Origin: Mariprofundus sp. KV
GTDB lineage: Bacteria > Pseudomonadota > Zetaproteobacteria > Mariprofundales > Mariprofundaceae
Assembly: GCF_013387475.1 (NCBI RefSeq)
Contig: NZ_VWNB01000002.1
Location: 124,001 to 188,000 of the forward strand
Direction of reading: 5' to 3'
DNA: 64,000 nucleotides
Below, in pieces: positions 20,253 through 30,588 of the stretch; positions within the stretch are counted from its first letter, which is position 1, and every line of letters starts with the position of its first letter. Below the pieces are notes generated by a model that made no database searches, was not told the DNA's origin, and saw only the letters and a program-made list of their open reading frames with translations. Both the position numbers and the translations under genes were made by a program.

Positions 20253-20636
20253 ATCATTTCTCTTCATACTGAGCTTGAACAGCTTCGCCAGAGCAAGAAA
20301 CTTATTTTCATCACAGTAGCCAATGATGAAGGGTTGGTCATGGCTGAAAGCGGTGACTGCCCGGAAGAGGAGTTTGCCGCCTACTCATCAGCCATGATGG
20401 AACTGGCACAGAAGGTTGCGCAATCAGGCAACCTTGGCGAGCAGATCTGTAGCGCGCTGGTACTGAAAAGCGGCCGCATGCTGGTCATGCATGAAGCCAT
20501 CATCGATGATCACTCCATTTACTTATCGATTTTGTGTAGCAGAGTTCCCGCTGGCATGCAGAGTCTGATTAAGGATATTGTTAACTGCGTTGCCAAAACC
20601 CTGTTGGGGAATCGTTATCAGGAGCCTAACCGTTGA
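20253..20636 (+). CDS. Roadblock/LC7-domain protein 1 (AUC start proposed)
   Basis: Roadblock/LC7 proteins are small dimers that bind or regulate small GTPases such as MglA. The 127-residue product aligns with the Roadblock protein at 30232: ELEQLRQ...NDEGLVMAESGD...EEFAAYSSAMMELAQ and RMLVMHEA. The first ATG/GTG/TTG-type codon in frame is TTG 20334, which would delete the first helix and strand. An in-frame TAG at 20250 limits the start to ATC 20253, ATT 20256 or a later codon. AGGGG lies five bases before 20253, and AGGGGTATAG is shared with the leader of the Roadblock gene at 23284. A non-canonical AUC or AUU start is therefore inferred. The 3' end overlaps the next gene (TTGA). Confidence 0.75.
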   Translation: MISLHTELEQLRQSKKLIFITVANDEGLVMAESGDCPEEEFAAYSSAMMELAQKVAQSGNLGEQICSALVLKSGRMLVMHEAIIDDHSIYLSILCSRVPAGMQSLIKDIVNCVAKTLLGNRYQEPNR

Positions 20637-21115
20637 GTAATTATAAAGAAGCCTGCCGTCGTGAGCTTGAACAACTGGTTGAGCGGGAATATCACCTTGA
20701 TGCAGCACTGCTCTGCAGCTCTGACGGCCTTCCTGTTGCATATGCAGCATCACGCGACATTGAGGCAGATGCACTCTCTGCAATGTGCTCATCCATGCTC
20801 TCGCTCGGTGATGCGCTTGCCATTCAAGGCGATGATGATGGCTGCATTCAGGTGGTTACCCAGTCCAAGAATCAGACTGTGGCACTGATTCATGCCGGCA
20901 GTGATATGCTGCTGGCCCTCATCGGTGCCCGAGACCTTAAACTCGGCATGCTGCTCGGACATGCCCGCAAAGAGGTTGATATCATTCTTGAACTGATCAA
21001 CAAGCAGCAGCACGAAGAGAAGGTTCAGGAGCAGCAGAAAGCCCCTGAAGAGAGAAAACCGGCGATGCTGGAAGAGCTGGTCAAACGCGTGATGCAAGAA
21101 GCACAAAACAGATAA
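20633..21115 (+). CDS. Roadblock/LC7-domain protein 2
   Basis: This 160-residue protein carries a Roadblock domain in residues ~5-118 (REYHLDAALLCSSDGLPVAYAA, VTQSKNQTVALIHAGSDMLLALIGARD), followed by a charged Gln/Glu-rich tail of ~40 residues that probably forms a coiled coil. TTG 20633 overlaps the stop of the previous Roadblock gene, so translation is coupled. The charged tail is unusual for the family and may mediate a separate contact. Confidence 0.82.
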   Translation: MSNYKEACRRELEQLVEREYHLDAALLCSSDGLPVAYAASRDIEADALSAMCSSMLSLGDALAIQGDDDGCIQVVTQSKNQTVALIHAGSDMLLALIGARDLKLGMLLGHARKEVDIILELINKQQHEEKVQEQQKAPEERKPAMLEELVKRVMQEAQNR

Positions 21116-21127
21116 CAGGAAGTTACG

Positions 21128-21532
21128 ATGGATATGAATCAGACCCTTGAAAAACTGGTAGGTGAACTTGATGGTGCGCTTGCTGCAGCTGTAGTCGACC
21201 TCAATAACGGGCTGTTACTTGGTGCCCATCACAACGTCCCCTACTTTACACAGTCCTATGTTGATGCTGTTGGCGCTGCCGCTGTGGATATGTTCAGAGG
21301 CAAAACCATCACTGCCGTTGAAGCGATGATGGCAGCCCAGCGCGGCGAAGAGCTTAAATACCATATCAAAGAGATTCAAACGACGACTGACGGCACCTAC
21401 CATTTTATGGCGGTCGTACCGGAGAAACCGGACTACCTTCTCATTCTGGTGACCCGCACCACGATCAATCTCGGCTCCGGCTGGATGGCAACACGCGCAG
21501 CACTTGCTGAAGTTGCCCCCAAATGTCCTTAA
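21128..21532 (+). CDS. Roadblock/LC7-domain protein 3
   Basis: The 134-residue protein has the alpha-beta-beta-alpha-beta plan of the Roadblock fold: VGELDGALAAAVVDLNNGLLLGAHHN, then TYHFMAVVPEKPDYLLILVTRTTINLG. It is more diverged than its neighbours. It lies 12 bp after Roadblock gene 2 and is presumably in the same transcript. It converges on the kinase/phosphoesterase fusion gene at 21576. Confidence 0.78.
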   Translation: MDMNQTLEKLVGELDGALAAAVVDLNNGLLLGAHHNVPYFTQSYVDAVGAAAVDMFRGKTITAVEAMMAAQRGEELKYHIKEIQTTTDGTYHFMAVVPEKPDYLLILVTRTTINLGSGWMATRAALAEVAPKCP

Positions 21533-21575
21533 GCAAACACTGATTATTGCTACACTATAACCGACCTGTACCCGG

Positions 21576-23099
21576 TTAGCGTCCTGCCCTGAGGCGCTGC
21601 ACAATACGCTCAGGGAAGTTGCTCTTCTGCATGTCTGAGGCCACCTTTTCGATATCATAGGCAACGGTAAATAGCTCAATCCTCTTACTGTCAGGGTAAA
21701 AGATTGCGGCTTCAGCCCCCACCTGACCATCCCTTGGCTGCCCCACAGATCCGGGACAGATCAGGGATGCCGAAAACGGCTTGAGATTGATCTCTGCTGC
21801 GCAGATAAACGGCATCACCACCCGCCCCTGCATGGCATAGACACCCTGAATATGAGAGTGGCCGTGCAGGCAGATCGAAATGGATTTCTCCCTGAGAAAC
21901 TCGAGGTTTTTCTCAGCCGTCATATTATAGACGTAACCATTAAAAAAACTCTTGTCGATGGGTGAACCATGCACGGCTAACCAGTCACTCATAAGGTGAC
22001 GCACCGGCAGTGCTGCCAGCCACCCCTTCTCCTCATCATCCAGCTGCTCAATGGTCCAGTCCAGCGTCCACTGCGCGCTGCGACTGGCTGCCACTTTGAC
22101 ATCACCATGATGGGCCACATAGTGATCATGGTTGCCACGAATACAGAACAGTCCCCTCTCTCTGGCCAGACGAATACATTCAGCAGGTTGAGGCCCGTAA
22201 CCTACGATATCTCCCAGGTGCATAATCTGATGAATGCCCCTCTCGTCAAACAACCTCAGAACACGCTCAAAGGCCGGCAGATTAGCGTGAATATCGGCAA
22301 TCAAACCAATAGGCTCATCACTATGCTTCAGCACCACCGCAGCACTTTTAACCATGGCACAGGACTCAACGGATCGAAGCTCAGAGATCAATGCTTTTTT
22401 ATGTGGCTCAAAATGACCGACAAACTGATCAGTGAGCCCCTCATAGACCATATCGTCAGCCGAAGATGAATAGGTCCGCAACATCGGTTTAAGCATTTGA
22501 CCAAGCAGTTGCCACTGCCTCTCATCCATACCCATTGCCGATGACTTCCTTAACCAGTTTGCCAGCATCGCAGAGAAAGATGAAAAACTGTCCCAGGGGT
22601 AGATATCATCATCCAGGTAGTAGAGCTGATCATCAGCCAGCGCAAAATTGGAGAGCCCTTCATCCAGTCGCTTCTCGCTCTGAGCCGCAAAGCGGCAGTA
22701 GATAGCCAGCAGCTCGCTTAACAAGCCTAACCGCTGCTGCTCGGGCAAGGATGAAAAATCGAGTGCGTGCAGCGGCTGCATACGGGGAGTGACATTACCC
22801 ACTACCCATCCCCGCTCCTGAATCACAAACCAGCAGCGCTGAGGGTGATAAATTGCGTAAGAGCTCTCTTTATCAATCTGCAGGGCACACCACTTGTGAG
22901 CCACCTCTTCAGTAGAGAAGTTACGGCGCGCATCAATTTTTAATACCCATGATGAATCGACATGGAGTTGTGTCGAAGGTTTACCGGTAAAATCACCGCC
23001 ATGAGACATATTCAGCGGCGGCACCTTAAGCAGGGAGGATATCTCCTCAGCAGTAACACGGGCATGGCCGCTGAGCGCACCAATGATAGATACTGTCAT
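21576..23099 (-). CDS. Kinase-like domain fused to a metallophosphoesterase
   Basis: A 507-residue two-domain protein. Residues ~30-210 resemble a protein-kinase-like fold: WVLKIDA with a candidate Lys (K54), and D146-E-G-L-S-N151-F followed by L-D163-DD, which resembles the catalytic DxxxxN and the metal-binding Asp of small-molecule kinases. Residues ~262-490 are a calcineurin-type phosphoesterase: GLIADIH (D269, H271), HLGDIVGYG (D297), GNHDH (N323, H324), LHGHSH (H412, H414). The phosphoesterase half resembles YfcE/ApaH-like enzymes and looks active. It is on the opposite strand from the surrounding Roadblock genes. Substrates are unknown. Confidence 0.75.
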   Translation of the reverse strand: MTVSIIGALSGHARVTAEEISSLLKVPPLNMSHGGDFTGKPSTQLHVDSSWVLKIDARRNFSTEEVAHKWCALQIDKESSYAIYHPQRCWFVIQERGWVVGNVTPRMQPLHALDFSSLPEQQRLGLLSELLAIYCRFAAQSEKRLDEGLSNFALADDQLYYLDDDIYPWDSFSSFSAMLANWLRKSSAMGMDERQWQLLGQMLKPMLRTYSSSADDMVYEGLTDQFVGHFEPHKKALISELRSVESCAMVKSAAVVLKHSDEPIGLIADIHANLPAFERVLRLFDERGIHQIMHLGDIVGYGPQPAECIRLARERGLFCIRGNHDHYVAHHGDVKVAASRSAQWTLDWTIEQLDDEEKGWLAALPVRHLMSDWLAVHGSPIDKSFFNGYVYNMTAEKNLEFLREKSISICLHGHSHIQGVYAMQGRVVMPFICAAEINLKPFSASLICPGSVGQPRDGQVGAEAAIFYPDSKRIELFTVAYDIEKVASDMQKSNFPERIVQRLRAGR

Positions 23100-23210
23100 A
23101 TTCCTCCCCTTAAACCGGACTATAGATCAATACTCACCATGAATATATGCCGATAATCAATGATGATATACCATTGTATTCCATGTACCGTTGCACTCCT
23201 GAGGAAGAAG

Positions 23211-23248
23211 TTCCATGTTTTTTTATGGAATCCTTAACGAAATTAAGG
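23211..23248 (+). repeat. Two adjacent hairpins upstream of Roadblock gene 4
   Basis: TTCCAT (23211-23216) pairs with ATGGAA (23225-23230), and CCTTAA (23232-23237) with TTAAGG (23243-23248). Both are perfect 6-bp stems. They lie ~36 bp before the GTG start and could be operator-like or RNA structure. Confidence 0.5.
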
Positions 23249-23283
23249 TTAAATGTCGCTGCTGAATATGGGAGGGGGTATAG

Positions 23284-23673
23284 GTGGAAAACACATCGGA
23301 ACTGAAACTGGATGTGCGGTTACAGGCTATTCTCGAGGAGACTCGCCAGATGTACAACCTGCACTCTCTTCTGCTTGCCGATCAGAACGGCCTGCCAATT
23401 AGCCATGCCGGAAAAATTGCCCATGCAGGCATGGCGGCTATTGCACCGGAGTTGATCAGGGTTGGCGATCATGCTGTTCGTCTCGGGGAATACAACAGCA
23501 TCACATGTGTGGCGCTTGTGCTTGAAGACAGCCATCTGATGGTAATCAAGGATATCGAGATCAACAACAGCCCGTTTGTACTGGTGATGGACACAGCAAC
23601 CGTCCCCAGAGGTATTCGCAAAGTAATCAAAGAGTTGAGAGACCGCTTAGCCTTTGCCATGCATATGGAGTAG
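23284..23673 (+). CDS. Roadblock/LC7-domain protein 4
   Basis: The 129-residue protein carries a complete Roadblock domain: LEETRQMYNLHSLLLADQNGLPISHAG, then LVLEDSHLMVIKDIEINNSPFVLVMD. GTG 23284 is supported by a strong GGAGGG ribosome site. The leader GGGGTATAG immediately before the start is shared with Roadblock gene 1. It is the first gene of a second plus-strand run that continues with the ODP-like gene. Confidence 0.85.
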   Translation: MENTSELKLDVRLQAILEETRQMYNLHSLLLADQNGLPISHAGKIAHAGMAAIAPELIRVGDHAVRLGEYNSITCVALVLEDSHLMVIKDIEINNSPFVLVMDTATVPRGIRKVIKELRDRLAFAMHME

Positions 23674-23722
23674 GACAATCTCACGCTAACATAAGGATAT
23701 AACTAAAATACGGAGGAACCGA

Positions 23723-24472
23723 ATGGCTGATATATTATTCGAAAATGAAGAGCACAGATGTGTCTTTTTCGAGGACTTCACTGAGGGCGAGATGGTATCG
23801 TCCAATCAGCATCTGATAATCCACAAAGGTAAAGGCATGCTGCTTGATCCCGGTGGTCACAAGGTTTATTCAAAAATCTTCTCTGCCATGCCTGAGCATC
23901 TGCCACCATCGATGCTGAAATACCTTTTTCTCTCCCATCAGGATCCCGACATCGTCGCATCCGTTAACGGCTGGCTGATGATCACCGATGCTGATGCCTA
24001 CATGTCAGCGATCTGGCGTCGTTTTGTCGCCCACTTCGGTGTTGATGGCAGCGTCATGGATCGTATGAAAGAGATACCCGATCAGGGCATGAAACTTGAT
24101 CTGGAAGGGTGCGAGCTGATGATCCTGCCCGCTCACTTCCTGCACTCATCGGGAAATTTCCATGTTTACGACCCGGTATCAAAAATCCTCTACTCCGGCG
24201 ACCTGGGCGCAGCCATTGTCGACTACCGTTTTGTTGAAGATTTCAATACCCATGTAAGCCATATGGAGGGCTTCCATAAACGTTATATGCCTACCAGTAC
24301 CGCATGCAAAGCGTGGGCAGCCATGGTTCGCGACCTGGACATTGAGATTATTGCACCACAGCACGGTGCCATGTTTGTAGGCAAAGAGCTCTGCAATCAG
24401 TTTATCGACTGGATTGACGGCCTTGAAGTGGGTGCTGAGACCATGAAAGATATCTACAAATTACCTGCGTAA
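23723..24472 (+). CDS. ODP-type metallo-beta-lactamase-fold protein
   Basis: The 249-residue protein has an MBL-fold diiron site: SHQDPDI (H72, D74, D76, with Gln in place of the usual Glu), H138 or H141, D160 in SGDLGAA, and H214 in PQHGAM. This pattern matches the oxygen-binding diiron (ODP) proteins, which resemble the MBL half of flavodiiron proteins but lack the flavin domain and can act as O2 sensors. It lies between two Roadblock genes. An O2-sensing role is inferred from family and context, not shown. Confidence 0.8.
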   Translation: MADILFENEEHRCVFFEDFTEGEMVSSNQHLIIHKGKGMLLDPGGHKVYSKIFSAMPEHLPPSMLKYLFLSHQDPDIVASVNGWLMITDADAYMSAIWRRFVAHFGVDGSVMDRMKEIPDQGMKLDLEGCELMILPAHFLHSSGNFHVYDPVSKILYSGDLGAAIVDYRFVEDFNTHVSHMEGFHKRYMPTSTACKAWAAMVRDLDIEIIAPQHGAMFVGKELCNQFIDWIDGLEVGAETMKDIYKLPA

Positions 24473-24506
24473 ACCCATAACTATAAATTATTGAGAGGAG
24501 AGAGAG

Positions 24507-24872
24507 ATGGCAACAAAACAGGATAGAATCAACAGCGTTCTTGATGAACTGAAAATGGCCACATCGGATATTCAGGGTGCAGGTGTACTCAGTCCGGATG
24601 GCATGATGATTGCGGATAAACTTGGTGGTACTCAGGGCGATGCAGCTGCCGCCATGGGTGCAGCCCTTGCCAGCCTTGCCAAACGCGTAACCGACACACT
24701 CAAGGTTGGCGACTTTCAGGAGGTCAACATTCGCGGCTCCAATGCAGGCATTCTGCTGTTCGATATTGAACATCGTGCATCACTGATTGTGACTGTGACA
24801 CAGGGAGCAAACCTTGGCCTGGTCTTCCTTGAAGCAAGACAGGCACAGCGCCAGCTGGGAGATATTCTCTAA
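24507..24872 (+). CDS. Roadblock/LC7-domain protein 5
   Basis: The 121-residue protein has a Roadblock domain: LDELKMATSDIQGAGVLSPDGMMIADKLGG, then ILLFDIEHRASLIVTVTQGANLGLVFLEARQA. ATG 24507 follows GAGGAGAG. It is 34 bp after the ODP-like gene and is followed by a strong terminator, so it closes the 23284-24872 run. Of the Roadblock set here it looks most like MglB-type proteins, but this is a judgement by eye. Confidence 0.85.
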   Translation: MATKQDRINSVLDELKMATSDIQGAGVLSPDGMMIADKLGGTQGDAAAAMGAALASLAKRVTDTLKVGDFQEVNIRGSNAGILLFDIEHRASLIVTVTQGANLGLVFLEARQAQRQLGDIL

Positions 24873-24881
24873 CAACTCATC

Positions 24882-24909
24882 AGAGCCCCCGTTTCGGGGG
24901 CTCTTTTTT
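24882..24909 (+). terminator. Intrinsic terminator after Roadblock gene 5
   Basis: Perfect 10-bp GC-rich stem AGAGCCCCCG / CGGGGGCTCT with a TTT loop, followed by TTTTT. Confidence 0.95.
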
Positions 24910-25056
24910 ATCTCAACTGATCATCGAGCCTCTACTGCAACCCGAAACTATGGTGAAAGTTGTGCGCGCTTACTGACCATCAATTTAACTTTCCGTTTGC
25001 GGCAGGCGGATCAGTCTGTATATTTCAAAAATTATCAGCCTGAAGAGGATACAATA

Positions 25057-25692
25057 ATGAATTCACTCGTTTACCTCCGCCGTATGATAGTCAGCCAAAA
25101 GCCAGCCAGGGTTGATTATACGGTCGGATCAACCACGAAAAGCATCTATTATGAGCGCGCCGGTTTTGAGGGCACCCATGATGAAGTATCCAGGAAACTC
25201 AGAGAGATTTTTGAATCCCGCTCAGTTGAGGTCATCACCAGCAGCGACTTTAACCCCATGAGCAACAAACGCGTATTTGCCCCGCAGGCAATCGCCTCAG
25301 CTCTGGCCGGTTATACATTTAATGCAGAGATGCGCGCCTCCCTGCTCAGTTTTGCCATGCGCCTGCCACCACTGATTGTTCGGCTCTACCCTATGCAGCG
25401 CTACGCCTTTCAGGATAACTCCACCTATATGAAGATGCATATGATGTATCAGCATAATGGTTCACTCCGAATGCAGAGCTTTATCTCTCAGGCTGAAAAC
25501 ACACGCGATGAGATGGTTCGTCTGCGGGTGTTGATGGCGACCTATATTCTCGGTCTGATCGCACCGCTTAACTCAACAGGAGGCAACAGCCACACTGCAA
25601 CCAGAGAGATGCGTGCCCATAATCCTGATGCCAGACGCGGCAAAAAAGTCTCTATTTTAAGCCGAATCATCAACAGAATCAGGGGTCTATAA
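25057..25692 (+). CDS. Unknown protein paired with the MglA-like GTPase
   Basis: I do not recognise this 211-residue protein. ATG 25057 is chosen because GAGGA lies seven bases upstream and a longer frame would run back through the terminator. It has no signal peptide or clear membrane helix. The N-terminal part is mixed alpha/beta (VDYTVGSTTKSIYYERAGF), the middle is rich in Met, and the last 30 residues are strongly basic (RRGKKVSILSRIINRIRGL). Its stop overlaps the GTPase start (TAATG), so the two are tightly coupled. It may be an effector or regulator of that GTPase. Confidence 0.7.
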   Translation: MNSLVYLRRMIVSQKPARVDYTVGSTTKSIYYERAGFEGTHDEVSRKLREIFESRSVEVITSSDFNPMSNKRVFAPQAIASALAGYTFNAEMRASLLSFAMRLPPLIVRLYPMQRYAFQDNSTYMKMHMMYQHNGSLRMQSFISQAENTRDEMVRLRVLMATYILGLIAPLNSTGGNSHTATREMRAHNPDARRGKKVSILSRIINRIRGL

Positions 25693-26276
25693 TGGAAGAA
25701 AAACAGGTTGTAAAACTTGTCATCACCGGCCCGGTCAATGCCGGCAAAACCACGATGGTTCAGAACCTCAGTGACTCGCAAATCGCAGCCACCGATGTTG
25801 CCCCCTCCGATCAGGTTGCTCAGCTCAAAAGCATGACCACAGTCGGACTGGACTTCGGCATTCTTAAAATCGATGAACACCTTGAACTGCACCTGTTCGG
25901 CACACCGGGTCAGTCACGGTTCAACTTCATGTGGAACATCCTCTCCAAGGGCGCCATCGGTGCGATTTTCCTTGTCGACAGTACCAGTGAAGAGTCACTG
26001 ATCGAGATGAGAAAGATGTATGACTACTATGAAGAGCATGTCGGTCTTCCGGTACTTGTTGGTGCAACCAAGCAGGATCTGCCCGGTGCCAAGGATGTCG
26101 ATGAGATCGCAGCCATCCTGAATCTTGGCGATGTCATGGTAGTACCCGTTGATGCCCGTGAGAAAGAGGGCAGCAAAATGCTCGCCCTCACCCTGCTTGG
26201 CAATGCGCTGGTACAGGCCAGCGCTGAAGCTGGAGAAGATGACTTTGATGATGGCGATTATGATGATCTCTTTTAG
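25692..26276 (+). CDS. MglA-like small GTPase
   Basis: The 194-residue protein is a Ras-like GTPase of the bacterial MglA/Arf-like type. G1 is GPVNAGKT (13-20), the switch I Thr lies in TTVGLDFG (T49/T50), G3 is TPGQ (71-74, replacing DxxG as in MglA relatives), and G4 is TKQD (126-129). The C-terminal ~25 residues are a strongly acidic tail (DDFDDGDYDDLF). MglA homologues control cell polarity and motility, with Roadblock partners as regulators. The six Roadblock genes nearby make such regulation likely. It lies 15 bp before mltD. Confidence 0.87.
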   Translation: MEEKQVVKLVITGPVNAGKTTMVQNLSDSQIAATDVAPSDQVAQLKSMTTVGLDFGILKIDEHLELHLFGTPGQSRFNFMWNILSKGAIGAIFLVDSTSEESLIEMRKMYDYYEEHVGLPVLVGATKQDLPGAKDVDEIAAILNLGDVMVVPVDAREKEGSKMLALTLLGNALVQASAEAGEDDFDDGDYDDLF

Positions 26277-30231: not shown

Positions 30232-30588
30232 ATCTCTATTCAACAGGAACTTGAACAGATTCGGCAGGAGCATGATCTCTCCTGTGTTATCGTTATTGAT
30301 GGTGAAGGCGCTCTGATCGCTCAGGTTGGCGATCACCCTGAAGGGGAAGAGTTTGCGCTCTACTCACCTATGGTGATGGAGACCATCCGCACCATGTCAC
30401 AGGTTGGTGGCTTTGGTGAGCCGATCTGCAACGGAGTCATTCTCAAAAAAGGAAGAATCCTCATCACCCATCAGGATGTTGTGAAGGGTGAAGTGATCTA
30501 CTCCTCACTGCTGTGTCAGAAAAAGGTGCCAGCCGGTCTTCTGGAACTGCTCAACAAGATCACCAAACTGGTAGAAAAAGCGATCTGA
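30232..30588 (+). CDS. Roadblock/LC7-domain protein 6 (AUC start proposed)
   Basis: Paralogue of Roadblock protein 1, matching in QELEQIRQEHDLSCVIVIDGEGALIAQVGD...EEFALYSPMVMETI and RILITHQD. GGAGGG at 30219-30224 is an excellent ribosome site; the in-frame codon at Shine-Dalgarno distance is ATC 30232 (CTT just before it). The only canonical codon is TTG 30217, which lies before and inside the Shine-Dalgarno region. I therefore propose an AUC start, homologous in position to that of Roadblock gene 1. It is separated from the main cluster by mltD, the substrate-binding gene and the unknown membrane protein gene. Confidence 0.72.
   Translation: MSIQQELEQIRQEHDLSCVIVIDGEGALIAQVGDHPEGEEFALYSPMVMETIRTMSQVGGFGEPICNGVILKKGRILITHQDVVKGEVIYSSLLCQKKVPAGLLELLNKITKLVEKAI

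Follow-up and report, generated by a model that had tools for sequence, protein, structure and literature searches.

We identify in Mariprofundus, a genus of Zetaproteobacteria, a single-chain protein that joins a kinase-like domain to a calcineurin-type phosphoesterase and that is almost always inherited with a small, putatively roadblock-like partner, R21128. This protein, here called KP, is best read as an unrecognised and optional component of a Ras-like (Group 3-type MglA) GTPase system, occurring in a subset of such systems. We have high confidence in the assignment of its domains and in its genomic association with R21128 and the GTPase. The inputs to bacterial MglA-type GTPase systems are little known outside Myxococcus, Thermus and the actinobacterial conservons. 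In being gained and lost together, KP and R21128 offer a specific, testable candidate input for one MglA subset. Judged from its sequence, KP has both sites complete, one kinase-like and one phosphatase-type. Should these activities prove to oppose one another, a single bifunctional enzyme would couple a Ras-like bacterial switch to the reversible modification of proteins.

The window, meaning the whole 64,000-nucleotide stretch of Mariprofundus sp. KV DNA that was analysed, encodes KP in an intact reading frame, with an ATG start and no internal stop in its ORF list and translation (Table 1). An earlier note on this DNA had claimed a fusion of a kinase-like region with a phosphoesterase. This is borne out by the open reading frame, by Pfam matches over the C-terminal half, and by an N-domain model that draws kinases. 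The note also correctly placed D146, N151 and D163, which lie within RLDEGLSNF and YLDDDIYPWD, and correctly credited the phosphoesterase with a full set of metal ligands (D269, H271, D297, N323, H377, H414 and H416). Its placing of KP opposite Roadblock genes is equally accurate, as KP lies antisense between two plus-strand stretches with roadblock genes, R21128 on one side and a second roadblock group on the other, with the GTPase further down.

Table 1. Features of the KP locus, in positions of the window.
Feature	Position	Strand	Description
R20334	20334..20636	+	Small protein upstream of Rob20633; no Pfam match; roadblock-like at best
Rob20633	20633..21115	+	Roadblock/LC7 (MglB-type); PF03259 E 2e-12; beside R21128 in most KP loci
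R21128	21128..21532	+	134-aa roadblock-like partner (putative); co-occurs with KP; no Pfam family
KP	21576..23099	-	507 aa; kinase-like N-domain (residues 1-250) and calcineurin-type phosphoesterase (residues 263-507)
Metallophosphoesterase C-domain	21576..22313	-	D269-x-H271, D297, N323-H324, H377, H414-x-H416
Kinase-like N-domain	22350..23099	-	K54, E78, D146, N151, D163-D165
Rob23284	23284..23673	+	Diverged Roadblock; PF03259 E 0.0018, below curated cut-off; conserved in Mariprofundus loci
ODP-family metallo-beta-lactamase-fold protein	23723..24472	+	PF19583 E 3e-73
Rob24507	24507..24872	+	Roadblock/LC7; PF03259 E 6e-11
g24949	24949..25692	+	Directly upstream of GTPase; assigned by position and synteny
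MglA-family small GTPase	25692..26276	+	PF00025/PF00071; GTPGQ and DAR motifs

Conservation was counted over 41 aligned KP orthologues. Genomes were sampled in two sets: 398 spread over the phylum, and 274 belonging to the class of genome G396, which is taken as Gammaproteobacteria by gene content (hereafter gamma). Across both sets, a profile of the N-domain found KP in 43 genomes. Every match lay in a frame that could hold both halves, except for contig-end fragments in G009 and G032 and a spurious match in G351, suggesting that the two halves need each other or work together. The nearest named genomes with orthologues are Mariprofundus and other Zetaproteobacteria. Full-length orthologues also occur in other genera, families and classes, and this, with the invariance of the named residues in all 41 aligned sequences, indicates that the fusion is more than chance. 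Of the two domains, the N-domain is the faster to evolve, with 27-52% identity against 42-69% for the C-domain. A model of full-length KP (pTM 0.59) does not fix the relative arrangement of the two domains.

The inheritance of KP with R21128 is near-obligate, and this is well supported. All 12 gamma genomes with KP have R21128 (E below 1e-40; 274 genomes searched), and KP is found in 12 of the 14 gamma genomes with R21128, the exceptions being G564 (72% complete) and G624 (99% complete). The hypergeometric p for this co-occurrence, uncorrected for phylogeny, is about 3e-19; the 12 genomes span ten families, so that relatedness explains only part of the pattern. Among the 398 genomes of the phylum sample, KP occurs in 32 and a close R21128 in 30. 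G009, G032, G203 and G266 carry KP alone, and G252 and G278 carry R21128 alone; all six of these genomes are incomplete, contaminated, or cut by a contig end near the locus. Both genes are kept in G426, G563 and G122, though on different contigs, and both are absent from G008 and G015, where the GTPase, g24949 and MglB are kept. Consequently, KP and R21128 behave like a single add-on to a GTPase core. The earlier note had proposed profiling KP against the GTPase gene; a GTPase of this type occurs in every KP genome examined, an association stronger than its reader could have known.

R21128 is better conserved than KP, and its consensus keeps the segments HnvPYFTQsY.DAV, FRGk and EiQMttd.TyHFM. 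From its sequence we infer that R21128 is roadblock-like; its HMM-HMM match to the adjacent roadblock family is marginal (P 1.7e-4, probability 49%). Beside R21128 in two KP-less genomes, KP is replaced by a conserved protein of about 533 residues with no Pfam match (L182:6823-8424 and L183:9757-11355). The same protein adjoins KP in a third genome (L155:9895-11541).

Eight gamma loci (L148 to L155) share a compact arrangement of X, GTPase, MglB, R21128 and KP, where X is a conserved protein of about 335 residues encoded before the GTPase. Contig ends interrupt two further loci (L156 and L146), while L147 and G396 have their GTPase elsewhere. Roadblock genes are present in all intact loci. KP mostly points towards R21128, but L149 and G396 have it after R21128 on the same strand. 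Given this varying orientation, the association of the two genes has survived rearrangement. In G396, G564 and G624 (L086, L182 and L183), of which only G396 has KP, the R21128 locus has chemosensory genes as neighbours (CheW, CheB, MCP, response regulator, CheA-like). Such neighbours suggest a tie to pilus-type chemosensing, and are consistent with surface motility.

The Mariprofundus locus has several features of its own. Its g24949 is possibly the counterpart of gamma protein X, to which it has a weak C-terminal HMM-HMM match (E 0.0057, probability 6.5%). At their C-termini, g24949 and the X proteins have similar tails, basic and amphipathic, which are possibly a shared contact with the membrane or a partner. 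R20334 has a marginal HMM match to Rob20633. Its family recurs further downstream, at 30313-30585, with a second member (42% identity) that also has a counterpart at the same relative place in Mariprofundus loci L042, L043, L100 and L101. In G002 (L049:4843-7537), three equally similar copies of Rob24507 point to recent local amplification or an assembly effect. The ODP-family gene adjoins KP only in Mariprofundus loci, and its product may, by family, be an oxygen sensor. An oxygen theme is also hinted at by a Crp/FNR-type regulator next to KP in L148 and by a protein with two globin domains next to KP in L149.

We tentatively propose, with somewhat less than even confidence in the mechanism as a whole, that KP is a two-domain signalling enzyme of this Group 3-type MglA subset, which would reversibly phosphorylate a protein of the module and thereby gate the GTPase. 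The N-domain would transfer phosphate from ATP to a module protein; R21128, whose gains and losses coincide with those of KP, is the first candidate. The C-domain would then remove the phosphate put on by the N-domain. The phosphorylation state of R21128 would alter roadblock action on the GTPase and hence GTPase output, which might be type IV pilus function or surface behaviour. Those steps that have support draw it from an intact phosphoesterase, the full set of canonical kinase positions, and co-inheritance with R21128 and the GTPase, that is, from sequence, structure models and genomic context. The co-inheritance of such a fusion suggests a GTPase switch controlled by opposing chemical marks. 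Counting against the mechanism are the lack of detectable kinase homology in sequence, the modest fold scores, the nucleotide hydrolases among relatives of the C-domain, and G624, which at 99% completeness has R21128, with KP not detected. The boldest form of the proposal is a single-chain family of opposing kinase and phosphatase, with no detectable kinship to kinases in sequence, which sets a Ras-like GTPase through reversible modification of a dedicated adaptor, R21128. This we regard as doubtful; were it true, a bacterial Ras switch would be wired to phosphorylation without a histidine kinase.

The C-domain is very probably a working phosphoesterase on the evidence of its conserved residues and family matches. 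It matches PF00149 (E 3e-15; 57.5 bits against a curated cut-off of 21.5) and PF12850 (E 1e-13), and its metal-ligand motifs DxH, GD, GNH[DE], H and GHxH are all present. All seven ligand residues are invariant in 41 of 41 orthologues, and D325 is conserved in 40. Among solved structures, the Sphaerobacter metallophosphoesterase 3rqz is the nearest (E 2e-33 by sequence, E 3e-18 by fold). Two archaeal proteins come next in the fold ranking, ahead of SapH, a streptococcal asymmetric Ap4A hydrolase/phosphodiesterase, below which rank PP1, PP2A and calcineurin. Likeness to 3rqz and SapH extends over the whole C-domain by both sequence and fold, at 34% and 20% identity, respectively. These two are stand-alone proteins, whereas KP has the additional N-terminal kinase-like domain. 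As the superfamily holds both nucleotide hydrolases and protein phosphatases, a preference for protein or nucleotide cannot be read from the C-domain.

The position of SapH near the head of this ranking favours a different reading, in which KP works as a nucleotide-signal device. Its kinase-like domain would bind ATP as a sensor, its C-domain would hydrolyse a nucleotide such as Ap4A, and the GTPase module would respond to this signal and not to phosphorylation of a protein. KP also has sub-threshold NCBIfam matches to the YfcE phosphodiesterase and ApaH-type enzymes. We consider this reading unlikely, since the invariant phosphotransfer positions Asp146 and Asn151 would be needless in a pure sensor, and the C-domain fold matches the protein phosphatases as well.

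Phosphorylation by KP, as we propose it, depends on the N-domain, which likely has a kinase fold. The evidence for this is a predicted model together with residue conservation, not sequence profiles. An AlphaFold (AF2) model of residues 1-250, built from nine aligned sequences, has a pLDDT of 87.9 and a pTM of 0.82. Searched against the PDB with Foldseek, it returned kinases in 49 of the top 50 matches, led by PknG (E 3.4e-4, probability 0.99), with low TM-scores of about 0.3. All 50 rows returned by VIA were kinases or pseudokinases, the best being PRPK at Z 8.1, a score that, as the tool itself warns, hardly exceeds what models lacking clear relatives commonly reach. Because these absolute scores are modest, the comparison strongly suggests a kinase fold rather than proving one, and the weight of the argument falls on how consistently different kinase families are matched. 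The predicted elements also come in an order that fits a kinase: strands 43-47 and 51-61, with K54 inside the latter, are followed by helix 64-81 with E78, strands 89-94 and 98-105, helix 120-140, D146 to N151, a two-strand hairpin, and D163. All 41 orthologues keep K54, D146, N151, D163 and D164, and 40 of them keep E78. Further, the D-5-N-12-D spacing is the same as in SrkA/YihE-like kinases of the same phylum.

In sequence, the N-domain stands apart from known kinases. Pfam and NCBIfam profiles contain no kinase family that matches residues 1-250, profile searches of the PDB returned no kinase homology, and HMM-HMM comparison with 30 APH-family proteins detected no homology (P 0.23). Membership of the APH kinase family (PF01636) was rejected on this comparison and the lack of a Pfam match. 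A match to DUF4279 (E 0.002) was dismissed as weak and confined to one KP orthologue. Thus, KP has the predicted fold, secondary-structure order and Lys/Glu/Asp/Asn/Asp positions of the PknG, Bud32-PRPK and SrkA(YihE)-APH superfamily, but differs in its undetectable sequence homology and low TM-scores. The earlier note had staked its reading on structure prediction finding a kinase fold in the N-terminal half, and the model matches almost only kinases. It was also right that this half has diverged, as the lack of a Pfam kinase match attests. Its suggestion of a pseudokinase fares less well: with the canonical catalytic positions conserved, nothing in the sequence supports it.

The range of kinases matched by the N-domain fold, which includes glucosamine kinase, APH, WaaP, maltokinase and amicoumacin kinase, is compatible with a small-molecule kinase (of the aminoglycoside, maltokinase or WaaP type) carrying its own phosphatase, with a purely regulatory link to the GTPase. 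We think this quite improbable, as no metabolic gene is consistently linked to KP and its conserved neighbours are signalling genes. Kinase folds can also AMPylate, as SelO does, and the relatives of the C-domain include phosphodiesterases, so that the N-domain could attach AMP and the C-domain remove it. Nothing specific favours such AMPylation and SelO is absent among the N-domain fold matches listed, leaving it with little probability. The notion of a dead, kinase-shaped scaffold beside a phosphoesterase that works alone, which draws on the N-domain's distance from known kinases and its faster evolution, is similarly improbable given positions kept across lineages that pseudokinases usually lose in part.

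Kinase and metallophosphoesterase also share one chain in the bacterial polynucleotide kinase-phosphatase Pnkp. Pnkp has a P-loop kinase and a ligase domain, and KP scores 12 bits against a Pnkp cut-off of 750. A role in anti-phage defence was rejected, there being no PADLOC match and only an NCBIfam anti-phage phosphoesterase match far below cut-off. PHROGs matches cover the phosphoesterase half only, no viral contig matched the KP pattern, and on plasmids the phosphoesterase half alone matches, at about 30-35% identity. A literature search returned no paper linking a kinase-metallophosphoesterase fusion to MglA or roadblock proteins, although absence there is not proof.

Actinobacterial conservons (CvnA-CvnD) resemble the KP system in placing a small GTPase, a roadblock protein and a kinase in a conserved locus. 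However, conservons use a membrane histidine kinase, whereas the kinase-like domain of KP is of another fold, is fused to a phosphoesterase, and lacks a receptor part. A conservon was rejected for the Mariprofundus locus, as no histidine kinase CvnA is found among the genes from 20334 to 26276.

The layout of the gamma KP loci resembles that of Group 3 MglA systems, which comprise an unknown protein with REC-like and wHTH-like parts, MglA, and one or two MglB proteins (Wuichet and Sogaard-Andersen 2014, PMC4316618). These systems are almost confined to beta- and gamma-Proteobacteria, with GTPGQ as the G3 motif, DAR as G5, and a G4 motif of [NT]KxD that often lacks the Lys (PMC4316618). The main text of that paper does not mention a phosphatase or phosphoesterase and does not describe KP. 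In Snodgrassella, which bears a Group 3 system, mutation of an mglB altered colony behaviour in a manner read as pilus-dependent (PMC11112851). The gamma loci fit this group, with an MglA-type GTPase and MglB in one locus and protein X as candidate for the REC/wHTH-like member. GTPGQ is present in the window and gamma GTPases. The window GTPase also has DAR, as do most of the gamma GTPases compared, two of them having DVR. In G4, the gamma GTPases have TR instead of TK, whereas TKQD is retained in the window. R21128 is not a member of Pfam Robl_LC7, and the Mariprofundus locus differs further in its TKxD G4 motif, its ODP gene and its additional roadblock genes.
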